Below are positions 43,396 to 55,422 of a DNA stretch of 64,000 nucleotides, piece after piece (within the stretch, counting starts at the first letter, position 1; every line of letters begins with the position of its first letter). Source of the DNA: Acetobacterium woodii (GTDB lineage: Bacteria > Bacillota > Clostridia > Eubacteriales > Eubacteriaceae); the NCBI GenBank assembly GCA_016213825.1, contig JACQZP010000027.1, positions 186,001 through 250,000 on the forward strand, given 5' to 3'. The translations under genes and the position numbers were made by a program. The notes below the pieces were generated by a model. That model was not told where the DNA came from. It made no database searches and saw only the letters and a list, made by a program, of their open reading frames with translations.

Positions 43396-43633
43396 ACTTG
43401 GAAAGGTATGATGTTTAGATAATTTACTAAAATAAACTGGTCGCAGTTGTTGGAACAATATACTCATGTAACATAAACTTCAAAAATTAGATATCTGCAG
43501 GAAATCAGAACCTAATTTGAAGAAAATACCTGCCGGCAACAGTTGAATTGTTTAAAGTGTGTATACAGCGTTATTTGAATAGATAATAGTTCGAAAAATT
43601 ACATGACCTGTGATGTCGGTTGGGAGAAAAAAT

Positions 43634-44386
43634 ATGTATTATAAGTTGATTGGCTGTAAAGCAATTCAAAGAGAGATTGCCAGTATTGTCTATAAATGTC
43701 CTAATGTTATCGATACGACGATGATCAGACAGGATTTTCATGAAAATCCGAAAATACTCAAAAATATTTTACAGGAAGAAATTGATCATATTGACAATGA
43801 TACCTGTAAGCACACAAATGGGATTAGAATCAATGAAATCAGCGCTATTCTATTAGGTTATGGACTGTGTTCTTATGCGACAGCTGGTCTAAAAAGCAAA
43901 AAATATCCACTTGTTATACCCAAAGCCCATGATTGTATAACACTTCTGATGGGTTCTAAGGAAGAATATAAAGAAGATTATTCTAAGAATGTTGGTACCT
44001 TTTTCTATTCTCAAGGATTTTTGGAACTAGGAGCTTTTTCAGATGACCAAAGGATTGAAAAAAAGCGCTTGGAATATTCGAAAAGGTACAAAGATTCTAA
44101 AAGAGTTGAGCGATTGTTGGAAGTAGAAGCAGAGATGCTAAAAAATTACAAATACGCAGCTTTAATATCATGGCCGGATTTAACCGCAGATTTCTGCGAA
44201 AATAAGGTGCGGAAAATAGCTGAGAAAAAAGGCTGGGAATACCGTAATATTAAGGGAAAGTCTTCACTTTTGGAAGATCTAATAAATGGAAATTGGCGAG
44301 AAGAGAATTTTATAATCGTTCCACCAGGTAATGAGATGATTCCTTCCTATGATGATGAGATTATGCGATTAAAAGTTGACAAATAA
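43634..44386 (+). CDS. DUF1638 protein
   Basis: A 250-residue protein; ATG 43634 follows GGGAGA. DUF1638 blocks: 'LIGCKAIQREI' at the start, 'ILLGYGLCSYATAGL', 'PLVIPKAHDCITLLMGS' with conserved Cys/His. The family is frequently encoded next to corrinoid methyltransferases in acetogens and methanogens. Here no methyltransferase is present. The gene is AT-richer than 40.8-43.4 kb and stands at the left of a block flanked by duplicated DUF3786 ends. Confidence 0.85.
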   Translation: MYYKLIGCKAIQREIASIVYKCPNVIDTTMIRQDFHENPKILKNILQEEIDHIDNDTCKHTNGIRINEISAILLGYGLCSYATAGLKSKKYPLVIPKAHDCITLLMGSKEEYKEDYSKNVGTFFYSQGFLELGAFSDDQRIEKKRLEYSKRYKDSKRVERLLEVEAEMLKNYKYAALISWPDLTADFCENKVRKIAEKKGWEYRNIKGKSSLLEDLINGNWREENFIIVPPGNEMIPSYDDEIMRLKVDK

Positions 44387-45815: not shown

Positions 45816-45837
45816 CAACCCACCGTCCATTTTTTTA
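45799..45837 (+). terminator. Terminator of the duplicated fragment
   Basis: TGGACGG-a-TGGG (45799-45810) pairs with CCCA-CCGTCCA (45819-45829) followed by T7. It matches the terminator at 43355-43395 in place and shape and may now terminate the GntR gene on the other strand only weakly. Confidence 0.78.
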
Positions 45838-46545
45838 TTTGAGGGTGTTAATGAAATCATCAAAATAGCCTTCTAGATGTCTTACCGCCCCGTCACCATC
45901 ACCGTTGCGGATATAGTCATACACTTTTTCACGCAGTTTCACAGCGTTAAGCGGACCAATCTGATCTGCCCAAATCCGGGAATATTCGACAATAAATATA
46001 GCAAATGAATTGAGAAGAATTGGCAATAACAGGTTACCGGACACGATGTTCAATGCATGATATTCCTGGTGAAGCATCTCGCCAACCCACATATTGTCCG
46101 GCGGGTTAGGCCCATTGAGAGACTCCCGGATTTCTGCCAGTATCCGCAGTGGCTTTTCCAACTGTTCCTCTGTATGATTTGCTGCCAAATTGCGCAGTAC
46201 CAGGGATTCGAGCGCCACCCGGGTATGGAGAATGGACGTTATCATCTGTTTATCCATCATGCCGTCGTGATAGCGTATAATGGCCATCAGCGTATCAGCA
46301 GTGCCGTATTCCACATAGTTTGCGACGTAAACGCCATGTCGTGGAACGATGCGGAGAAAACCCTTACGGGAGAGGTTTGTTATCCCCGTATGCACAATGC
46401 TTTTACTGATCTGCATGCTTTCAGCGAGTTCACTCTCGGTCGGCAGTCGATCCCCGATTTTGAGATCACCCGAAATGATCATTGATTCAACCTGCTGTTC
46501 AAAAACATCTAAAGCGTTGGGTACGCACAACGGCTCAAATTTCAT
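45835..46545 (-). CDS. GntR-family (FadR/FCD) regulator
   Basis: A 236-residue repressor: N-terminal GntR winged helix ('GDRLPTESELAESMQISKSIVHTGITNLSRKGFL') and an FCD helical domain with metal-binding type Asp/His positions ('RVALESLVLRNLA', 'MLHQEYHALNIVSG', 'EGYFDDFINTL'). AAAGGAG precedes the ATG. It is divergent from the molybdoenzyme operon, with palindromic CACCAAG/CTTGGTG sites between them (46741-46779). FCD regulators usually sense carboxylic acids, which hints at the substrate class of that enzyme. Confidence 0.9.
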   Translation of the reverse strand: MKFEPLCVPNALDVFEQQVESMIISGDLKIGDRLPTESELAESMQISKSIVHTGITNLSRKGFLRIVPRHGVYVANYVEYGTADTLMAIIRYHDGMMDKQMITSILHTRVALESLVLRNLAANHTEEQLEKPLRILAEIRESLNGPNPPDNMWVGEMLHQEYHALNIVSGNLLLPILLNSFAIFIVEYSRIWADQIGPLNAVKLREKVYDYIRNGDGDGAVRHLEGYFDDFINTLK

Positions 46546-46779: not shown

Positions 46780-46864
46780 TTCATTGACGGGAATGGTGAT
46801 TCGAGAAAAGTGCAACATTTTTTAGTGAATAAGTCAGATTACAAATAAAAAGGAGGCAGTTAAA

Positions 46865-49162
46865 TTGGGAGAATGGAAAAAGACACAATGTAATATGTGT
46901 GCAGTAAGCTGCGGTCTGGAGTTGGAAGTGGAAAACAACAAAATCATCAGTGTACGCCCTGACAAAGACAGCCCTAAATCAAAAAATTACTGCTGCCGAA
47001 AAGGCAGAGCGGTAAAGTATTATCAAGACAACACTGAAAGGCTGGACTACCCGTTAAAACGTGTGGGTAATGAGTATGTCAGGATTTCCTGGGAGCAAGC
47101 GTATCGTGAAATCGGTGCGAAGGCGAAAGAAATAGTTGATCAGTATGGTCCGCGGACATTTGCGCTTATCGGCTGTGGTCTACCTTCTGCACAAGGGGAA
47201 GCGGCGGTTGCGATGACACTCAAGAATGCAATCGGTTCGCAATATTACTATAATCCCATTGGCATTGAATTTATGGGTTTCTGGTGGAGCTGTGGCAAGA
47301 TATTCGGCAGCCAGTTAAGCGTTCCGGAACCAGATGAAAGCGTTAATGATGTGCTTATTTTCTGGGGCAGCAATTCATATGTTGCGCACAATTTCAACCG
47401 ATCAAGACAAGTGATCCGTGAATTTTCTGAAGATCCCAACCGTCTGGTTATTACTGTTGATCCGCGTTTGTCGGAAACGGCGAGGATGTCAGATATGCAC
47501 GTTGCATTGCGGGCGGGAACGGATGCGCTGTTTTTACGCACATTGATTGCGCTTATCATTCGCGAGGGCTGGCAGGATCAAAAATTTATAGATGAAAGAG
47601 TTCTTGACTTTGATAAAGTTAAGTCATGGTTTAATGGCTTTGATATCGAAGGAGCACTGGAAGTTTGTGGCGTTCCTTATGTGCACGCAAGAGACTTCAG
47701 TAAAATACTGGCGACCAGAAATTGGGGTGTGCATCAGGATCTTGGGTTGTTTATGGGTCGGCACAATACGCTGAATAGCTATCTGATGTTAATGCTGATG
47801 GTTATTACCGGGAAGGCCCTTGTTAAGGGCGGCAATGTTGTTCCTAATGTCTTTGGCAACATGGGTGCTCATACAAACGAAGATGATCCCACAGTATGGC
47901 ACACGGTAGAAACGGACAGAGCTCCTGTTCTCGGGGTTTATCCGGATGGGGTTCTTTCTACGGAAATGTTGAGCGACAATCCGGAACATTTGCGGGTACT
48001 GTTTACCTCAATGACAAACCCGGCGCGTTCATTTCCCGATTCAAAAGCAATTGAAGAGGGCCTTGACAGGCTTGATCTCCTGGTGGTCATTGACATCGTT
48101 ATGACTGAAACAGCCAGACACGCAGATTATGTCTTGCCGGGAAAAACCGCCTATGAGGCCTACGACTTCAATCTTTTTCAGATGACTTTTCCGGAAACCA
48201 TCTGTCAGATGAAGCATCCGTTTATCGGACAGATCGGCGAAAGGAAAGAAGACGGAGAAATTTGGCTCGGTATTGCTAAAGCTATGGGACTGCTTCCTCC
48301 GATTCCCGATTCTCTGTATAAAGCGGCTGAGGGTGATCGCATCACTTATTTTACTAAACTGCTGATGTTTGTCATAAAACACAAAAAATATTTTGACATC
48401 CTGCCACTGATTATCGCAGAGACGCTGGGAAAAGCGATGGGCTCCGCCACCCGAGCAATGATGTGGGCAGTTCTGATCACTTCTCCCCTGGCAGGATCAG
48501 ATATGGTCAAACGAGCCGGATTTACAGCTGGGAAAAGACACCGCCTGCTGCAGCTGATTCCTAAGTTTAGGAATATCATCACAATGGATAATGTGTTTCA
48601 GGCAGTTGACGATCACTCGGAAGGCGTCGTCATTGCACTTTCTGATAATGACAAGGATAATCTGCGACATCTCGTCCATAAAGACAAGAAGTTTCATTTA
48701 TATAATGACGTAGTATCCGACTATATTCAGAATATAACGCCGGAAAAGGAAAAAGCGGAGCTGGACGGTGAGGTTGAGTATCCATATGTAATCAGTTCAG
48801 GGCGACATTCCGATGGCGGTGTCAACAGCATTATGCGTAATCCGGCAACGTATGTTCATCGCAAGCCTTATGTGTTGGCCATGAATCCCGAAGATGCCGA
48901 GGAATGCGGTTTCAAGGAAGGACAGGAAGTGCGTGTAACAACAAAGGGTGGAACGCTTGTTGCGCCGGTTGAAATCTCGTATCAGATAGCAAGAGGATAT
49001 TTCTTTGTACCGCATTATTTCGGATTTGAATTTAATGGCAAGACAATCGGCGAGGGCGTAAGTACTTTGGCAAGAGCCATTGATCTTGATCCAATTACAG
49101 GCAATCCATTTTTGCGCTATATCCCGTGCAAGGTGGAAGCATTGGAGGCGGTGGGGATATGA
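46865..49162 (+). CDS. Molybdopterin (or tungstopterin) oxidoreductase, catalytic subunit
   Basis: A 765-residue DMSO-reductase-family enzyme, TTG start with AAGGAGG seven bases upstream. The N-terminal [4Fe-4S] ligands are Cys9, Cys12, Cys16 and Cys43 or Cys44. 'RISWEQAYREIGAKAKEI' and 'IFWGSNSYVAHN' are family blocks. The likely metal-ligand position is Cys143 in 'WWSCGKIFG'. The C-terminal molydopterin-dinucleotide domain has 'GFKEGQEVRVTTKGG'. No in-frame TGA occurs, so no selenocysteine. A ~100-residue helical insert (about 500-610) is unlike formate dehydrogenase. With NuoE/NuoF/HydA-like partners it should couple a substrate oxidation to NAD(H) and perhaps ferredoxin. The substrate is unknown. 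No Tat signal, so cytoplasmic. Confidence 0.88.
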   Translation: MGEWKKTQCNMCAVSCGLELEVENNKIISVRPDKDSPKSKNYCCRKGRAVKYYQDNTERLDYPLKRVGNEYVRISWEQAYREIGAKAKEIVDQYGPRTFALIGCGLPSAQGEAAVAMTLKNAIGSQYYYNPIGIEFMGFWWSCGKIFGSQLSVPEPDESVNDVLIFWGSNSYVAHNFNRSRQVIREFSEDPNRLVITVDPRLSETARMSDMHVALRAGTDALFLRTLIALIIREGWQDQKFIDERVLDFDKVKSWFNGFDIEGALEVCGVPYVHARDFSKILATRNWGVHQDLGLFMGRHNTLNSYLMLMLMVITGKALVKGGNVVPNVFGNMGAHTNEDDPTVWHTVETDRAPVLGVYPDGVLSTEMLSDNPEHLRVLFTSMTNPARSFPDSKAIEEGLDRLDLLVVIDIVMTETARHADYVLPGKTAYEAYDFNLFQMTFPETICQMKHPFIGQIGERKEDGEIWLGIAKAMGLLPPIPDSLYKAAEGDRITYFTKLLMFVIKHKKYFDILPLIIAETLGKAMGSATRAMMWAVLITSPLAGSDMVKRAGFTAGKRHRLLQLIPKFRNIITMDNVFQAVDDHSEGVVIALSDNDKDNLRHLVHKDKKFHLYNDVVSDYIQNITPEKEKAELDGEVEYPYVISSGRHSDGGVNSIMRNPATYVHRKPYVLAMNPEDAEECGFKEGQEVRVTTKGGTLVAPVEISYQIARGYFFVPHYFGFEFNGKTIGEGVSTLARAIDLDPITGNPFLRYIPCKVEALEAVGI

Positions 49163-49614
49163 ACACAGAATATCGAGAAGTAATAACCCGGGCAATGGAA
49201 TACGGCGGGATACTTGACGCCATGCTGGCACTGCAGGAAAAAGATGGCTATCTGACCGGGGAGGCTGTCGAAGCGCTGGGGAAAGCATTTAATATGTTTC
49301 CTTCTCAAGTGTATGATACCGCAACTTTCTATAGCATGCTGAAATTTGAACCACAAAGTATCACCGAGATTTTAATCTGCCGCGGGGCACCCTGTCATGT
49401 GGCCGGTTCAGTTGAAGTGATTGTTGCAATTGAAAAGGAAATTGGCATCAAAATCGGAGAAAAAACAGAAGACGGAAGATACTCCTTTGATTATACCGAA
49501 TGTTTGGGCCAGTGTCAGGCAGCGCCTGCTGTTTTGGTAAATGGAAAACTGCATACGAATGTCACGCCGGAAGGGATAACTGTTTTACTTAGAAAAGGAG
49601 GACCAGAAGAATAA
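49159..49614 (+). CDS. nuoE: NuoE-like [2Fe-2S] subunit
   Basis: A 151-residue thioredoxin-like ferredoxin (24-kDa type). ATG 49159 overlaps the upstream stop (ATGA) with GGAGG in front. Cluster ligands: C-x4-C in 'CRGAPC' and C-x3-C in 'CLGQC'. The N-terminal helices 'GYLTGEAVEALGKAFN' fit NuoE/HydC/HndA. It transfers electrons with the NuoF-like flavoprotein next to it. All genes from 46865 to 52325 overlap or nearly touch, so they make one complex. Confidence 0.92.
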   Translation: MNTEYREVITRAMEYGGILDAMLALQEKDGYLTGEAVEALGKAFNMFPSQVYDTATFYSMLKFEPQSITEILICRGAPCHVAGSVEVIVAIEKEIGIKIGEKTEDGRYSFDYTECLGQCQAAPAVLVNGKLHTNVTPEGITVLLRKGGPEE

Positions 49615-50846
49615 TGGAAGAGCTAAGAATAACACTACGTAATGCTGGAAAAATAAATCCCGAACTAATCGAAGATTATATCAAAGTTGGCGGATATACA
49701 GCGCTAAAAAAGGCTAGAGAAACGGAACGGGAGCAGCTCATCAATATGCTGGAACAATCGGGAAAACTTCGTGGCCGCGGAGGTGCCGGATTTAATACCG
49801 GACTGAAATGGAGTGGCGCATTTAAGGCTAAAGGGGCGATTAAATATGTTGTCTGTAATGCCGATGAAGGAGAACCGGGTACATATAAAGACCGGATGAT
49901 TATCGAGTCTGATCCGCATACGATTCTGGAAGGGATTTTGATCGGTGCTTATGCTATTGATGCAAAAGAGTGTTACATTTATTGTCGCGGTGAATATGAA
50001 AACAGCATCCGGATTCTGAGAAAGGCCATCGCACAGGCAGAAGAAAAAGGGCTCTGTGGGGATGTAAAAATTCGTGTTCATTCCGGTGCTGGTTCTTATG
50101 TGTGTGGCGAAGAAACGGCGCTGTTAAATTCGCTGGAAGGCAAGCGGGCGGAACCGAGATTAAAACCACCATTTCCGACGGTTGCAGGTTTTAATGCAAA
50201 GCCGACAGTTGTAAATAATGTTGAAACTTTTGCAGCAGTGCCAGCGGTTGTCGAAAAAGGAGCCGATTGGTTCTGCTCAATCGGCGCTGAGCAATACCCG
50301 GGAACAAAGGTATTTTCTTTGAGTGGGGATATCACAAATAAAGGGTGTTTTGAAGCGGCAACCAATGTAAAACTCCGTGATATTATCGATGAATTTGGTG
50401 GTGGCGTTGCAAATGGCAAGCAATTAAAAGCCGTCCAGCTGGGCGGAAGTTCTTGTGGATTTCTAAAACCGGAACAATTAGATACCCAGGTGGATCTGGA
50501 TTCGATGCGTGAAATCGGCGGATCACTCGGTTCAGGAGCGTTGCTTGTCATCGACGATAGCCACAATATGGTCGACATACTGGTCGGCATGGCAAAGTTT
50601 TTTAATCATGAGTCATGCGGAAAATGTACGCCATGCCGTGAAGGAACCCTTAGGGTTGCCGAACTGATCGAAAAGATCGCAGCTGGAAACGGAAGTAGCC
50701 AAGATTTGGAAGAAATTAAATTATTGTCTGACTATATGAATATGTCGGCTTTCTGCGCATTAGGTCAGTCAGCTACAACAGCAATAACCAGTGCAATGGC
50801 ACTTTTCCCCGAAGATTTCAGTGCGAAGATAGCTAAGGAGGTGTAA
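49614..50846 (+). CDS. nuoF: NuoF-like NADH/FMN subunit
   Basis: A 410-residue subunit: FMN site 'GRGGAGFNTGLKW', NADH site 'NADEGEPGTYKDR', SLBB part, and the [4Fe-4S] motif 'ESCGKCTPCREG' with a fourth Cys in 'FCALGQ'. It lacks the extra N-terminal thioredoxin domain and C-terminal ferredoxin domain found in HydB/HndC of bifurcating hydrogenases. It is the NAD(H) end of the molybdoenzyme complex. One-base overlap (TAATG) with nuoE. Confidence 0.93.
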   Translation: MEELRITLRNAGKINPELIEDYIKVGGYTALKKARETEREQLINMLEQSGKLRGRGGAGFNTGLKWSGAFKAKGAIKYVVCNADEGEPGTYKDRMIIESDPHTILEGILIGAYAIDAKECYIYCRGEYENSIRILRKAIAQAEEKGLCGDVKIRVHSGAGSYVCGEETALLNSLEGKRAEPRLKPPFPTVAGFNAKPTVVNNVETFAAVPAVVEKGADWFCSIGAEQYPGTKVFSLSGDITNKGCFEAATNVKLRDIIDEFGGGVANGKQLKAVQLGGSSCGFLKPEQLDTQVDLDSMREIGGSLGSGALLVIDDSHNMVDILVGMAKFFNHESCGKCTPCREGTLRVAELIEKIAAGNGSSQDLEEIKLLSDYMNMSAFCALGQSATTAITSAMALFPEDFSAKIAKEV

Positions 50847-50849
50847 GCG

Positions 50850-52325
50850 ATGGAAATGATCAACATTAATATAAACGGCAAAGTATTTTCTGTGGATGCA
50901 GAAAGTACAATTCTTGAAGCCGCAACAGCAAATGGCATACATATTCCGACATTGTGCACCATAAAAGGAATCGACTCCAGGGCAAGCTGCAGAATATGCG
51001 TGGTTGAAGTAAAAGGTGAAAGAGTCTTTCAGCCTGCTTGTGCAACCAAAGTCAGAAAAGGGATGGAAGTCGATACCGATACACTGGCAATCCGCAAATC
51101 AAGAAAAACAACCTTGGAGCTTTTGCTTTCGCGTCATGCGGTCGATTGTCATCATTGTTTGAGAATTGGAAATTCCCGATGTGATGATCTGGATCCTGCT
51201 TTTTGTGAGATGTGCTTTTTCTGCGAGTGTGTCAAGGATGGATGTTGTGAACTCCAGGCCTTAGCACGTGAGTACAAGGTCGATGTACTACCGTATCCGC
51301 ATGAGAATATCGATCAGAAAGTAGATAAAAGTACCGGCTCGATTATTCGTAATTCGAACAAATGTGTAAAATGCCGCAGATGTGTAGATGTCTGTAATGA
51401 TATTCAGACAGTCCATAACTTAAGTATCATCAACAGAGGATCAAATACGAAAATTGTACCGGAAATGGATAAAAACATGAAAGACAGTCCATGTGTACAA
51501 TGTGGACGTTGTGTAGATGTCTGTCCCACTGGGGCTCTTTTCGTTGAAGAACATACGGATGAAGTTCTTTTTTATACACATAATTATGGTATCGAGACGG
51601 CCGCACTGGTTTCATCAAATACGCTAAAAAAACTTGCAGAGCTGTTTCGGATGGAGACACCTGTTATGGAGGCAGAGCTGGTTGTTGCTGGGCTTCGCAA
51701 AATTGGGGTGGATTATGTCTATACCGATGAGGTTGTCAATCAGCTGTCGGCGAAAGATGGCGAAAAAGCATTATTAAAAGCGCTTGAAACAGAAAAAGAA
51801 ACAGTGATTATTACCGACAGTTATGCCGCAGAAAAATTTGTAAAACAAAATTTTGCAAAACTGGCTCCGAAGCTCGTTACTTATGACTCGCCCCAACGCA
51901 TTTTTTCAAAATACATGAAACAGAACTTTGCGGGGGATCAGAATCATAATACTTCTGACTTTCGTCTAATCGCAGTTACCGAGGGCGGGGAAAACGCAGC
52001 CGATGCTTACGAAAATAAAAGCGTGGATTTCGTAATTCCGGCAAGAGAATTATACAGTATTTTCATTAGAACCGGTGTGAATCCTAAAAAAAGACAGCCA
52101 CTAAAACCAGATAGCATTGTGGTATCACCAAAAGAGCTACCAGCAACGGTATTCTTTGCACCGGTAGAATGGTCAATGGAAAAAGACATTAAGCAAACGG
52201 AATTTGTGTTAAGTGGAAACCGTATAAAAGCAGCAATCGCAACGAATTTGGGACAGGTAGGGGTATTGTTGGAGGAAGTCCAAAATGGGAACTCACCCTA
52301 TCGTGTGATTCGAATTAACGCATAA
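50850..52325 (+). CDS. [FeFe]-hydrogenase-like Fe-S subunit lacking H-cluster ligands
   Basis: A 491-residue protein. [2Fe-2S] domain with Cys36, 47, 50 and 64; a His-Cys cluster region from His96 with nine Cys (100, 103, 111, 119, 122, 125, 127, 132, 133) instead of the usual three; two [4Fe-4S] ferredoxin motifs ('CVKCRRCVDVC', 'CVQCGRCVDVCP'). Residues ~235-491 align in order with HydA, but TSCCPGW is replaced by TDSYAAEKF (322-330), MPCxxK by VTEGGEN (376-382), and the last CxxxC segment is missing; SPQ (347-349) and 'FVIPAREL' remain. It cannot make H2 and must serve as an electron-wiring subunit of the molybdoenzyme complex. Confidence 0.88.
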   Translation: MEMINININGKVFSVDAESTILEAATANGIHIPTLCTIKGIDSRASCRICVVEVKGERVFQPACATKVRKGMEVDTDTLAIRKSRKTTLELLLSRHAVDCHHCLRIGNSRCDDLDPAFCEMCFFCECVKDGCCELQALAREYKVDVLPYPHENIDQKVDKSTGSIIRNSNKCVKCRRCVDVCNDIQTVHNLSIINRGSNTKIVPEMDKNMKDSPCVQCGRCVDVCPTGALFVEEHTDEVLFYTHNYGIETAALVSSNTLKKLAELFRMETPVMEAELVVAGLRKIGVDYVYTDEVVNQLSAKDGEKALLKALETEKETVIITDSYAAEKFVKQNFAKLAPKLVTYDSPQRIFSKYMKQNFAGDQNHNTSDFRLIAVTEGGENAADAYENKSVDFVIPARELYSIFIRTGVNPKKRQPLKPDSIVVSPKELPATVFFAPVEWSMEKDIKQTEFVLSGNRIKAAIATNLGQVGVLLEEVQNGNSPYRVIRINA

Positions 52326-52423
52326 GTATGAATATGGAGACTGTTTTGGAGATGCGATACAAAATTAATACCGTTGAAGATTACCAATTGCTGTGTGAAT
52401 TAGAAGGTCAAAAGGAGCAAATA

Positions 52424-53647
52424 ATGATGAATAAACCAATTTTAGCGGATGAAGCAGCTGAGCTGCTATTAACGATATCAAATTTTTTGAAAGAAGAAAG
52501 TATCCCATTGACAGATACCCTAAATAGAGTACTTTCATGTGACATTTATGCATCGTTTCCGATGCCACCGTTTAACAAAAGTCCATATGATGGATATGCA
52601 CTGCGCAGTGAGGATGTAGCAGATGCTTCGGTGAGTCATCCGGTCGAACTTAGCATCACTGAAGAAATTCAGGCTGGATGCGCGCCTCAAATTGAAGTGA
52701 CAAAAGGGAAAGTCGCTAAAATAGCGACAGGTGCACCAATACCCGAGGGCGCCGATTGTACAGTCAAATATGAAGCAGTGGAAAGTGACGGGGAGAAGGT
52801 AAGAATAACAGAACCCATAAATAAAATGGAAAATGTAATTCTGCAAGGCGAGGAAAGCAAACAAGGGGAACCATTATTTTCGAAAGGCACCCTGGTTACA
52901 CCGCCGGTTCAGGGCATGTTGGCAGCTCAGGGAATCGCTGTTTGTCAGGTGTATGCAAAGCCGCGGGCGTCACTTATCTGTACTGGTTCAGAATTGCTGG
53001 AACCGGGTGAGCCAATCCAGAAAGCAAAAATCTATAATTCAAACCGCTACAGCATCGGCAGTTATCTGCAAGCCTTTGGCCTGAATTGTCATTATGAAGG
53101 AACCGTTGCTGACGAGTTAGAAGCCATTGCGGATAAACTGGAGGAGGCATTGGAAAAATCAGATATGGTCATCACAACCGGCGGTGCATCGGTAGGTGAC
53201 TATGATTGGGCAGTTGCGGCTGCCCAAAAGATTGGGGCAAACATTTTATTTCGGAAAGTGCAAATGAAACCAGGCTCGTCCATTCTTGCCGCTGAAAAGG
53301 ACGGAAAACTGATTCTGAGTCTTTCGGGAAATCCCGGCGCTGCTGTTATGAGCATGATTAAGATTGGGTTGCCATTTATTCGCAGACTATGCGGCCGCAG
53401 TGATCTGTACCCCAAGACAATTGAAGTTACGCTTAAGGATCCGGTTATGAAAAAAAGTCCGGTACTAAGGTTGTTGTGTGGAACATTGGAAATTGAAGCT
53501 GACAGCGTATTATTTGCGGCAAGGAATGTTCAGGGAAATGGTGCTATTTCATCATTTTATAATTGTAATCTGATTGGGGAAATTCCTGCTGGGAGTGGCG
53601 TGGTTTTAGCCGGAACAAAAATAAAAGCAATTTGTTTTATGGAGTAA
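52424..53647 (+). CDS. moeA: MoeA molybdopterin molybdenumtransferase
   Basis: A 407-residue protein. The start at 52424 (AAAAGGAG upstream) gives the usual MoeA length; an in-frame ATG at 52328 has no ribosome site. MoeA features: 'PMPPFNKSPYDGYAL', 'IATGAPIPEGADCTV', 'ICTGSELLEPGE', 'ITTGGASVGDYD', 'LSLSGNPGAAVMSM'. It inserts molybdate (or tungstate) into adenylylated molybdopterin. It follows the hydrogenase-like subunit within 100 bp, so the cell makes metal-cofactor capacity together with this enzyme. Confidence 0.93.
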   Translation: MMNKPILADEAAELLLTISNFLKEESIPLTDTLNRVLSCDIYASFPMPPFNKSPYDGYALRSEDVADASVSHPVELSITEEIQAGCAPQIEVTKGKVAKIATGAPIPEGADCTVKYEAVESDGEKVRITEPINKMENVILQGEESKQGEPLFSKGTLVTPPVQGMLAAQGIAVCQVYAKPRASLICTGSELLEPGEPIQKAKIYNSNRYSIGSYLQAFGLNCHYEGTVADELEAIADKLEEALEKSDMVITTGGASVGDYDWAVAAAQKIGANILFRKVQMKPGSSILAAEKDGKLILSLSGNPGAAVMSMIKIGLPFIRRLCGRSDLYPKTIEVTLKDPVMKKSPVLRLLCGTLEIEADSVLFAARNVQGNGAISSFYNCNLIGEIPAGSGVVLAGTKIKAICFME

Positions 53648-53669
53648 TCGGCACATGAATGGAGAAAAT

Positions 53670-54191
53670 ATGAAGCAAAACATACCGGTTTATTCTTTTG
53701 TCGCATGGTCCGGAGTGGGAAAGACAACCCTGCTTGAGAAATTAATTCCAGAGTTAAAAAGTCGGGGCATGAAAGTGGCTGTTATCAAACATGATGATCA
53801 TGAATTTGAAATTGATAAAAAAGGAAAGGACTCCTGGCGGATGACACAGGCAGGAGCTGATGTTACCGTCATTGCTTCTGATACCCAGGCAGCAATTATG
53901 GAAAACAGACGCGTATCCATGGATGTCCTGCTATCCCATGTTGCAAATGTGGATTTGATTTTAACAGAAGGCTATAAGTTAGGCCCATGGCCAAAGATTG
54001 GGATCTGTCGTTCCGGTTCAGGAAAAGTGCTACCAGAGATAAAGGGGAACTACTTAGCGGTGGTTTCAGATTTACCCCTTGATGTTGACTGCCCGGGCTT
54101 TGCACTGGACGATAAAAAAAATATTGCCGATTTTATCATAGCGGATATGAAGAAATCCGTCATTAATAATGAGGTAGGCAAATGCAATTAA
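53670..54191 (+). CDS. mobB: MobB molybdopterin-guanine dinucleotide synthesis GTPase
   Basis: A 173-residue P-loop protein; ATG 53670 is preferred because GGAG sits seven bases before it. Walker A 'WSGVGKTTL' near residue 15, then 'VIKHDDHEFEID', 'DSWRMTQAGAD' and 'LILTEGYKLGPWPKI', all MobB blocks. It aids attachment of GMP to the pterin. MobA is not nearby. It overlaps the next gene by ten bases. Confidence 0.92.
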   Translation: MKQNIPVYSFVAWSGVGKTTLLEKLIPELKSRGMKVAVIKHDDHEFEIDKKGKDSWRMTQAGADVTVIASDTQAAIMENRRVSMDVLLSHVANVDLILTEGYKLGPWPKIGICRSGSGKVLPEIKGNYLAVVSDLPLDVDCPGFALDDKKNIADFIIADMKKSVINNEVGKCN

Positions 54192-55210
54192 TTAAAACAG
54201 AAGCTGCTGTAGGTCATGTGCTTTGCCATGATCTCACACGGATTATTAAAGGTCAGGATAAGGAAGCCATATTTCGTAAAGGCCACATTGTCGTTAAAGA
54301 AGATATTCCGGTGTTGCTTTCGATGGGAAAAGAATATCTCTACATATGGGAAAAACAGCTCGGCGTGTTGCATGAAAATGACGCAGCGCAGATTCTTTAT
54401 GAGCTATGTAAGGGCGAAAACATGTATCCTTCTGATGTAAAAGAAGGCAAGATTGAACTGTTTGCAGATTGTGATGGATTGCTTAAAATAGATGTGGAAA
54501 AAATGAAGCAGATCAATGGGCTTGGAGAGATGATGATTGCAAGCCGTCACGGAAACTTCCCGGTTAAAAAAGGTGATAAGATTGCCGGAACCAGAATTAT
54601 TCCACTTGTGATAGAAAATGAAAAAATGAAAAAAGCGCAGGAAATTTGCAGCGGAAAAGCAATCTTTCAGGTAAAACCATTTCAACCTAAAAGAGTTGGA
54701 ATCGTCACAACCGGAAGTGAAATCTATAATCATCGAATCAAAGATACGTTCACGCCAGTAATTATCGAAAAGCTTGCTGAATACCAAGCTGAGGCCGTTG
54801 GCCAGATTATCTGTAATGATGATCATGAGATGATTACAGAAGCGATCCATACGTTTTTAAAACAGGGTGTTGATATGATTCTATGCAGTGGCGGAATGAG
54901 TGTGGATCCGGATGACCGAACACCGCTGGCGATAAAAAATGCGGGAGCCAGGATTGTAAGCTATGGAGCACCGGTGCTTCCGGGAGCAATGTTTTTGCTT
55001 GCCTATTATGAAAAAAATAGCGTTCCAATCGTGGGTCTGCCTGGATGTGTAATGTATGCCAAACGAACAATCTTTGACCTTGTACTGCCCCGGTTAATGT
55101 GCAGCGAAATTTTACAAAAAGAAGATTTGTCTGTTTTAGGACAAGGGGGTCTTTGCCTCTGCTGCGAAACATGTACATTCCCGAACTGTGGATTTGGAAA
55201 GGGTGGCTGA
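54182..55210 (+). CDS. MoeA-like molybdopterin-binding protein with C-terminal Cys cluster
   Basis: A 342-residue protein with a MoeA/MogA-type cofactor domain: 'VGIVTTGSEIYN', 'LCSGGMSVDPDDRTP', 'GLPGCVMYAKRTIFD'. The N-terminal third is MoeA-related but reduced. The final segment 'CLCCETCTFPNCGFGKG' has five Cys, a tail found in a clostridial subgroup. It overlaps mobB. It may deliver or insert the finished cofactor into the 46865 enzyme, or handle tungsten in place of molybdenum; unproven. Confidence 0.87.
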   Translation: MQLIKTEAAVGHVLCHDLTRIIKGQDKEAIFRKGHIVVKEDIPVLLSMGKEYLYIWEKQLGVLHENDAAQILYELCKGENMYPSDVKEGKIELFADCDGLLKIDVEKMKQINGLGEMMIASRHGNFPVKKGDKIAGTRIIPLVIENEKMKKAQEICSGKAIFQVKPFQPKRVGIVTTGSEIYNHRIKDTFTPVIIEKLAEYQAEAVGQIICNDDHEMITEAIHTFLKQGVDMILCSGGMSVDPDDRTPLAIKNAGARIVSYGAPVLPGAMFLLAYYEKNSVPIVGLPGCVMYAKRTIFDLVLPRLMCSEILQKEDLSVLGQGGLCLCCETCTFPNCGFGKGG

Positions 55211-55395: not shown

Positions 55396-55422
55396 ACACC
55401 GAATTTTTCGGTGTTTTTTTTT
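55396..55422 (+). terminator. Intrinsic terminator
   Basis: ACACCGAA (55396-55403) and TTCGGTGT (55407-55414), tight loop, then nine T. It lies after the molybdoenzyme operon and the DUF2284 remnant. Confidence 0.87.

Follow-up and report, generated by a model that had tools for sequence, protein, structure and literature searches.

The window analyzed here is a 64,000-nucleotide stretch of an Acetobacterium woodii genome (assembly GCA_016213825.1, 3.94 Mb in 37 contigs; contig JACQZP010000027.1, positions 186,001 to 250,000); the host is probably an acetate maker. From position 46865 to 55210 on the plus strand, the genes overlap or nearly touch each other, in an operon-like packing, and would form a single operon. 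Four of these genes are the main subject of this analysis: the gene for a molybdenum or tungsten (Mo/W) bis-pyranopterin catalytic subunit of 765 amino acids (aa) (46865–49162; PF00384, PF01568, and PF04879), hereafter the Mo gene; the gene for a NuoE-like [2Fe-2S] subunit (49159–49614; PF01257), whose ATG at 49159 overlaps the stop codon of the Mo gene (ATGA); the gene for a NuoF-like subunit of 410 aa that binds flavin mononucleotide (FMN) and NADH (49614–50846; PF01512 and PF10589), assigned to the non-bifurcating type by its diagnostic residues; and the gene for a 491-aa homologue of the [FeFe]-hydrogenase subunit HydA that lacks the H-cluster (50850–52325), denoted here the adaptor and delineated by its open reading frame, Pfam matches, AlphaFold2 model, and alignments. 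The place of this HydA relative among the genes for NuoE, NuoF, and the Mo/W subunit is as described in an earlier reading of the sequence alone (the sequence-only reading).

The HydA-like adaptor

Profile searches and structure prediction both relate the C-terminal half of the adaptor to HydA, as had been proposed from the sequence alone. In this domain (residues 236–491; 51555–52322), which stops just short of the third H-cluster motif (L3), residues 251–489 match the Pfam family Fe_hyd_lg_C (PF02906; E 2.8e-22, 80 bits with a cut-off of 22.1). The best NCBIfam model for the adaptor is NADH-dependent [FeFe]-hydrogenase A6 (306 bits, under its cut-off of 765), and among PDB sequences HydA1 7q4v scores best (5e-51, or 6.5e-78 using the family profile). 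The NuoG model TIGR01973 scores 110 bits, with the best stretch at residues 6–107; no NuoG-type, molybdopterin-oxidoreductase-like C-terminal part was found, Fe_hyd_lg_C being the sole Pfam family at residues 251–489. Kinship with NuoG was rejected on these profile scores (PF02906 and NCBIfam), which favor HydA. With the AlphaFold2 model of the adaptor (mean predicted local distance difference test, pLDDT, 81; predicted template modeling score, pTM, 0.81) as the query, Foldseek ranks T. kivui HydA first (E 8.4e-35, TM score 0.80 by query), and VIA comparisons match residues 126–491 to Desulfovibrio HydA 1hfe (Z 28.3), residues 234–491 to the algal HydA1 3lx4 (Z 20.8, root-mean-square deviation 2.9, 250 aligned), and the model to CpI and the HydA chains of A. 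woodii, T. kivui, and T. maritima (Z 25.5–31.6). Because the model, Foldseek, and the VIA overlays agree, the part of the adaptor beyond residue 235, where the sequence-only reading expected a hydrogenase fold, is predicted to adopt one.

The family was examined in an alignment of 22 adaptors (A3; the window and all 21 loci of a genome scan with an adaptor match) together with 18 hydrogenase-type sequences. At the positions of the L1 motif (TSC[CS]PxW; ITDSYAA in the window, 51810–51830) and the L2 motif (MPCxxKxxE; TEGGENAAD, 51978–52004), as located by alignment with hydrogenases, the Cys columns (D323 and G379 in the window) contain Cys in none of the 22 family rows. The residues preceding L3 are retained (...YRVIRINA, then the stop codon), the CPGGC...GGG.P stretch is missing, and the C-terminus lies right before L3 in all 24 complete family members, the 25th (L055) running off its contig. 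The proteins of L063 and of the second L035 copy end in RICG and RLCA, respectively, with this Cys out of line with L3. The three adaptors of genome G010 are included in alignment A2 and in the counts of C-terminal ends and inserts; the fragments in genomes G018 and G009 are in neither. The loss of the H-cluster Cys and the deletion of the last motif, both noted originally in the window, accordingly hold across the family. Among the landmarks by which the adaptor had been aligned in order with HydA, the ‘REL’ segment stands, with R399 and E400 invariant in all 22 rows, but ‘SPQ’ (residues 347–349), although present in the window, is not conserved across the family. In a quick tree, the 22 adaptors are split from the 18 hydrogenase-type rows by a branch with SH-aLRT 99. 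The adaptor is a HydA relative that has lost the H-cluster and, judging by the model, retains the hydrogenase fold.

The ratio of nonsynonymous to synonymous substitution rates (dN/dS) relative to the L035 orthologue is 0.146 for residues 1–235, 0.168 for residues 236–491, and 0.158 for the whole gene, a comparison that rests on 35 synonymous and 21 other changes; relative to the L036 orthologue, the respective values are 0.189, 0.179, and 0.183. The former hydrogenase domain is under purifying selection. One could argue that the adaptor is simply what is left of a decaying hydrogenase and has no role, given that every H-cluster motif is gone and that one relative holds a mere scar of the operon; with both whole-gene ratios this low, an end point shared by 24 of 24 complete members, and R399/E400 along with all cluster ligands invariant in 22 rows, this is exceedingly improbable. 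The hydrogenase fold appears to have been retained by selection after its catalytic metal site was lost, and it probably serves to hand on electrons as an adaptor.

The iron-sulfur (Fe-S) wire at the front of the adaptor (residues 1–235; 50850–51554; PF13510 and Fer4 families) has been kept, as the sequence-only reading stated: the ligands C36/47/50/64, H96/C100/C103, C172/175/178/182, and C215/218/221/225 are invariant in all 22 rows and, going by the families, would hold a [2Fe-2S] cluster, a His/Cys [4Fe-4S] site, and two [4Fe-4S] clusters. Overlooked previously was an insert (residues 104–132; 51159–51245; identified by motif search in the family) with four extra conserved Cys (C119, C122, C125, and C127). 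Where HydA reads H-x3-C-x2-C-x5-C, the adaptor family reads H-x3-C-x-H-C ... F-C-x2-C-x2-C-x-C-x5-C; this motif is present in 24 of the 24 members searched and in none of the 18 hydrogenase-type sequences (17 show the short form in the motif search; the 18th, L008, missed the pattern, and the same gene from L042 is short). The insert region is poorly modeled (pLDDT below 50 at residues 98–109 and 115–132), and its Cys may ligate either zinc or an additional [4Fe-4S] cluster.

Genomes of the same order encode a different, 486-aa HydA-like protein beside NuoE and NuoF (L039 5599–8794, L040, and L041). The L039 and L041 proteins keep the C.GGC..GGG.P stretch and have the other motifs changed, a second kind of altered hydrogenase; no frame the size of a Mo enzyme is present in the L039–L041 stretches examined.

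The catalytic subunit and the NADH module

By its fold and the three Pfam families listed above, the Mo/W subunit is a member of the dimethyl sulfoxide (DMSO) reductase (bis-pyranopterin guanine dinucleotide, bis-PGD) superfamily, with one [4Fe-4S] site (C9, C12, C16, and C44). Its model (pLDDT 90.6) is close to formate dehydrogenase (FDH), Nap, and acetylene hydratase (Z 31–35, with the rows largely tied; Z 31.5 for acetylene hydratase 2e7z). In profile alignments with 7qv7, 9t1s (the ligand residue of which reads X and was taken as selenocysteine, Sec), and 2e7z, the column of the Sec/Cys ligand is occupied by Glu135. All 41 rows of the Mo alignment (A4) contain Glu in this column, and the following FDH His column is Phe in 38 of the 41. 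This alignment leaves out the first L044 copy (internal TAA), the partial genes of L075 and L078, L082 (in two pieces), the distant loci L083–L102, and the four copies in G010, which were placed in a separate alignment (A1) where E135 is invariant as well (5/5 rows). Among the distant loci (21 aligned rows, counted by hand on the printed alignment), the ligand column contains Cys in 10 (L083, L085–L092, and L098), Glu in three (L079, L082, and L084, of which L079 is shared with A4 and L084 is unsure, its residue lying beside an insertion), and other residues in eight, mostly with Cys one column on. Glu135 putatively binds the metal; to our knowledge, the known metal ligands in this enzyme class are Sec, Cys, Ser, and Asp. 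A carboxylate at the ligand position of a bis-pyranopterin enzyme thus becomes open to testing in this family, which occurs in acetogens and gut bacteria.

That the complex is an ordinary NAD-dependent FDH, with the HydA-like protein in place of a NuoG-like linker, could be argued from the best model of the catalytic subunit, TIGR01591, and from its best PDB scores, which are against FDH chains; however, the TIGR01591 score of 235.7 bits is far under the cut-off of 666.25, and the replacements in the ligand column (Sec/Cys by Glu, 41/41) and next to it (His by Phe, 38/41), on which FDH identity was rejected, render this very unlikely. Another reading takes the enzyme for a non-redox catalyst akin to acetylene hydratase, such as a Mo/W hydratase, in which the redox subunits would only keep the metal reduced (activation) and would not turn over in every catalytic cycle. 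The acetylene hydratase profile is among the best matches (242 bits), the folds are alike, and the Mo enzyme is found without a nearby adaptor and NuoEF in Syntrophaceae-type loci. Yet, the column of the catalytic Asp of acetylene hydratase, which we take to be Asp13, contains Ala, Gly, or Ser and that of its ligand Cys contains Glu, in 41 of 41 rows each, and 15 of the 21 loci contain the NADH module, which speaks for a steady supply of electrons; we consider a non-redox enzyme unlikely.

One of the four Mo gene copies in G010 (L036 10575–12818, minus strand) has an in-frame TAG. Pyrrolysine at this codon was considered and rejected: the best match to the PylB model in G010 scores 168 bits against a cut-off of 348, and because no match exceeds the cut-off, this is most likely a broken copy. 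Internal TAA codons in a Mo gene copy (L044 1615–3906) and a NuoF gene (L060 12824–14032), both in metagenome-assembled genomes (MAGs) from the gut, represent decay or assembly error.

The sequence-only reading also suggested that the complex might bifurcate or confurcate electrons between NADH, ferredoxin, and an organic substrate, a proposal that hinges on NuoF. In the window NuoF, Pfam detects only the Complex1_51K, NADH_4Fe-4S, and SLBB families, with no Fe-S family besides NADH_4Fe-4S; its 410 aa align to just residues 115–526 of the 597-aa bifurcating subunit 7t2r_B, and clusters B2–B5 are lacking. The A, M, and F of 7t2r_B are replaced in NuoF by T, K, and Y, respectively, and its PSGG by SSCG. 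Every one of the 20 rows of the NuoF alignment (A5; 18 family members plus L039 and L042 as outside comparisons, leaving out the L060 gene with its internal TAA and the L078 fragment) contains T90, K92, and Y162, and the 18 family rows read GG[SG]SCG, never GGPSG. According to passages of Losey et al. (PMC7311640), the bifurcating type is recognized by A/E and M, F, and GGPSG, and these residues separate the kinds, for which counting Fe-S domains is not enough by itself; in the description given in parts of Schut et al. (PMC9304861), six clusters in the B and C subunits define the Bfu family, and homologues without B2–B5 do not interact with ferredoxin. Flavin-based bifurcation is disfavored because NuoF lacks the bifurcation domains and carries non-bifurcating residues in 18 of 18 rows. 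A bifurcating or confurcating complex of the HylABC-FdhF2 or Bfu type, with the Mo site as the third substrate site, would have a subunit set alike in outline and a HylA that, in the published passages, likewise lacks L1–L3; moreover, by overall score, NuoF is matched best in the PDB by bifurcating B subunits, with complex I NuoF ranking behind them. Nevertheless, with a 410-aa NuoF that covers only part of the bifurcating subunit, T90/K92, Y162, and GG[SG]SCG in place of A(E)/M, F, and GGPSG at every diagnostic site, and no ferredoxin interaction described for homologues without B2–B5 (parts of PMC9304861), such a complex is quite unlikely, and the proposal of bifurcation by the known mechanism is not supported.

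Related loci in other genomes

The genome scan yielded 60 loci, with the adaptor adjacent to the Mo gene in 21. Fifteen of these have NuoE and NuoF in between (the L060 NuoF has an internal stop, and the L063 NuoE is matched in part), including Sporomusa acidovorans, two Mogibacterium MAGs, Lachnospiraceae TWA4, and many gut Clostridia. In the other six (L044–L047, L051, and L052), the adaptor stands beside the Mo gene without NuoEF. The genomes of L044–L046 contain NuoF homologues, the best in frames of 628–633 aa, like HydB in the PDB (626–630 aa); in those of L047, L051, and L052, which are MAGs of unknown completeness, no NuoF homologue was detected at E 1e-20, and the adaptor is present in each. 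Because the adaptor-Mo pair occurs without NuoEF, it appears to be the core of the system, and this is the strongest support for a role of the HydA-like protein as an adaptor. In a tree of the Mo subunit, constructed with a quick method and subject to a warning of long branches, the adaptor-linked rows fall within one starred branch of 25 rows, L050 included.

A 260-aa protein with 4Fe-4S domains, the N-terminus of which reads as possibly flavodoxin-like, is encoded beside the adaptor-Mo pair in L044 (807–1589), L045 (6381–7163), and L046 (4647–5426), and is a candidate electron donor. Relatives are encoded just before the Mo gene in L050 (9205–9981) and L055 (418–1194), and about 2.4 kb behind the adaptor in L080 (10047–10823).

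Within the genus of the window host, the Mo gene is found in 2 of 19 genomes, and a third (G018) holds the adaptor at a contig end. Across 398 genomes of the phylum, the window adaptor itself scores 710 bits and, among the matches listed, no other exceeds 291 bits; the next five (L103–L107) are frames of 577–591 aa with the hydrogenase motifs present. HylA of G. acidurici was not identified among the matches listed in these adaptor scans. In Sporomusa acidovorans (L043 10001–15453, compared with window 46865–52325), the Mo subunit shares 85% and the adaptor only 57%; such uneven divergence within one operon perhaps reflects recombination. At the syntenic place in genome G009 (L038 8882–9897), short NuoE-, adaptor-, and moeA-like pieces are joined in order between conserved flanks, and the operon was therefore probably lost there through several deletions.

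The genes neighboring these loci indicate no single substrate, and no result of the analysis singles out carboxylates, aldehydes, or hydroxy acids. In L057, the operon genes come after genes encoding reductases of the Old Yellow Enzyme type, a FabA-like dehydratase, and a CoA-transferase; for this host alone, such neighbors are a hint of chemistry on CoA or carbon-carbon bonds.

Proposed electron flow, known relatives, and flanking genes

We regard it as reasonably probable that the operon encodes a soluble, non-bifurcating, NADH-linked oxidoreductase of four subunits, with the former hydrogenase domain as a docking scaffold, an adaptor-Mo core, and an exchangeable donor. In such a complex, NADH would deliver a hydride to the FMN of NuoF, from which single electrons would pass through the [4Fe-4S] cluster of NuoF, with NuoE alongside, and on into the Fe-S chain of the adaptor. 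The former hydrogenase domain, its chemistry lost, would place the last cluster of this chain near its [4Fe-4S] counterpart in the Mo/W subunit, and the latter would reduce an organic substrate. NADH-driven reduction is the best guess as to direction, the alternative being oxidation that yields NADH; the substrate step might resemble reductive dehydroxylation, likewise a guess. The donor module would be exchangeable, NuoEF serving in most loci and another low-potential donor, perhaps ferredoxin-like, elsewhere.

Several points weigh against this scheme. Both the direction and the substrate class are guesses, the substrate being the weakest point. No gene of the 260-aa 4Fe-4S type was found in the examined stretches of L047, L051, and L052, and this gene is not simply a replacement of NuoEF because it also occurs in or near the NuoEF-bearing L055 and L080. 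The Mo gene and the adaptor are separated in the genome of L050, where the adaptor is on another contig, with NuoF reading in two frames; Syntrophaceae/Smithella-type and other loci have no adaptor near the Mo gene. The Mo enzyme can thus exist without the adaptor. The PDB ranking of NuoF, given above, counts here as well, and the adaptor may take electrons from ferredoxin, which would allow coupling outside the flavin. Going further, it is possible, albeit doubtful, that the Mo/W subunits represent a new enzyme class with a Glu-bound metal that carries out, in gut Clostridia and acetogens, a reduction not described before, fed through a domesticated, H-cluster-less hydrogenase socket that takes an NADH module or another low-potential donor.

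The association of an H-cluster-less HydA with a molybdoenzyme is known in kind because HylABC-FdhF2 has been described; this complex has reportedly been known since 2013. According to passages of Poudel et al. 2018 (PMC6085437), HylA, a HydA homologue from which L1, L2, and L3 are all missing, forms a complex with FdhF2, and 19% of 2,516 formate dehydrogenase homologues are predicted to form complexes with HylABC; because missing motifs were the criterion, the present family could be among these 19%. The window system resembles HylABC-FdhF2, the electron-bifurcating FDH of Gottschalkia (Clostridium) acidurici, in the loss of L1–L3, the NuoE/NuoF-like partners, and the separate molybdopterin subunit (parts of PMC6085437, PMC5861303, and PMC9304861). 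It differs in having a NuoF without the domains and residues of bifurcation, a Mo subunit without Sec/Cys, and perhaps, HylA being compared by description only, in the four-Cys insert of the adaptor; the window system is a distinct variant. The setting of the H-cluster-less hydrogenase fold hence differs from that in the known bifurcating Hyl complex, and caution is due against annotating complexes of this kind either as formate dehydrogenases or as bifurcating enzymes.

The adaptor shares the entire predicted fold and the Fe-S front with group A HydA (A. woodii 7q4w, T. kivui 8a6t, and C. pasteurianum CpI; model residues 1–491 align with 8a6t 1–495), unlike which it has no L1–L3, a C-terminus cut before L3, and the extra insert. 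In the non-bifurcating NADH-dependent hydrogenases of Syntrophus and Syntrophomonas, as described in parts of PMC7311640, a non-bifurcating NuoF is likewise wired to a HydA-type subunit, but the third substrate site in the window system is a Mo/W enzyme rather than an H-cluster. The NAD-dependent FDHs 6tg9 and 8j83 also have a NuoF-type subunit wired to a Mo subunit; however, in these enzymes the Mo chain itself carries the Fe-S wire as an N-terminal extension (6tg9_A 25–243 matches the adaptor front, and 256–703 matches the Mo subunit), whereas the window system has a separate HydA-derived protein and no Sec/Cys. Acetylene hydratase 2e7z belongs to the same bis-pyranopterin family, but its Asp13 and ligand Cys are not conserved in the window family. 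The catechol dehydroxylases, placed closest to acetylene hydratase in passages of PMC7028382, are members of this family too, the likeness being by description only. Among the open-licence PMC papers listed by our searches, no title or abstract beginning concerns the complex, the pair without NuoEF, or a Glu ligand, and we found no description there of a system that combines NuoEF-less pairs and the four-Cys insert with a non-bifurcating NuoF and Glu in the ligand column.

Downstream of the adaptor gene lie moeA, for a molybdopterin molybdotransferase (52328–53647; PF03453 and PF00994), mobB (53655–54191; PF03205, with TIGR00176 above cut-off), and a gene for a MoCF-domain protein probably involved in cofactor biosynthesis (54182–55210; PF00994), all on the plus strand and probably in the same operon as the genes for the Mo/W subunit, NuoE, NuoF, and the adaptor. 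A mobA-like gene, identified by reading, is located near the Mo gene in L045 (8217–8807), L047 (9377–9973), L051 (9427–10008), L053, and L080; its recurrence in gut Clostridia would be in keeping with a dedicated cofactor supply. Before the TTG start of the Mo gene, a Shine-Dalgarno sequence, AAGGAGG, can be read directly (46851–46857, plus strand). A divergent gene for a GntR/FCD-type regulator (45835–46545, minus strand; PF00392 and PF07729), a candidate regulator of the operon, has similar counterparts in L035, L046, L056, and L061. Behind the last gene, a consensus scan identified a terminator-like hairpin followed by T8 (55396–55414, plus strand), one of 12 such sites in the region compared with 8.7 expected in shuffles. 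Upstream of the operon region, the window encodes a DUF1638 protein (43610–44386).

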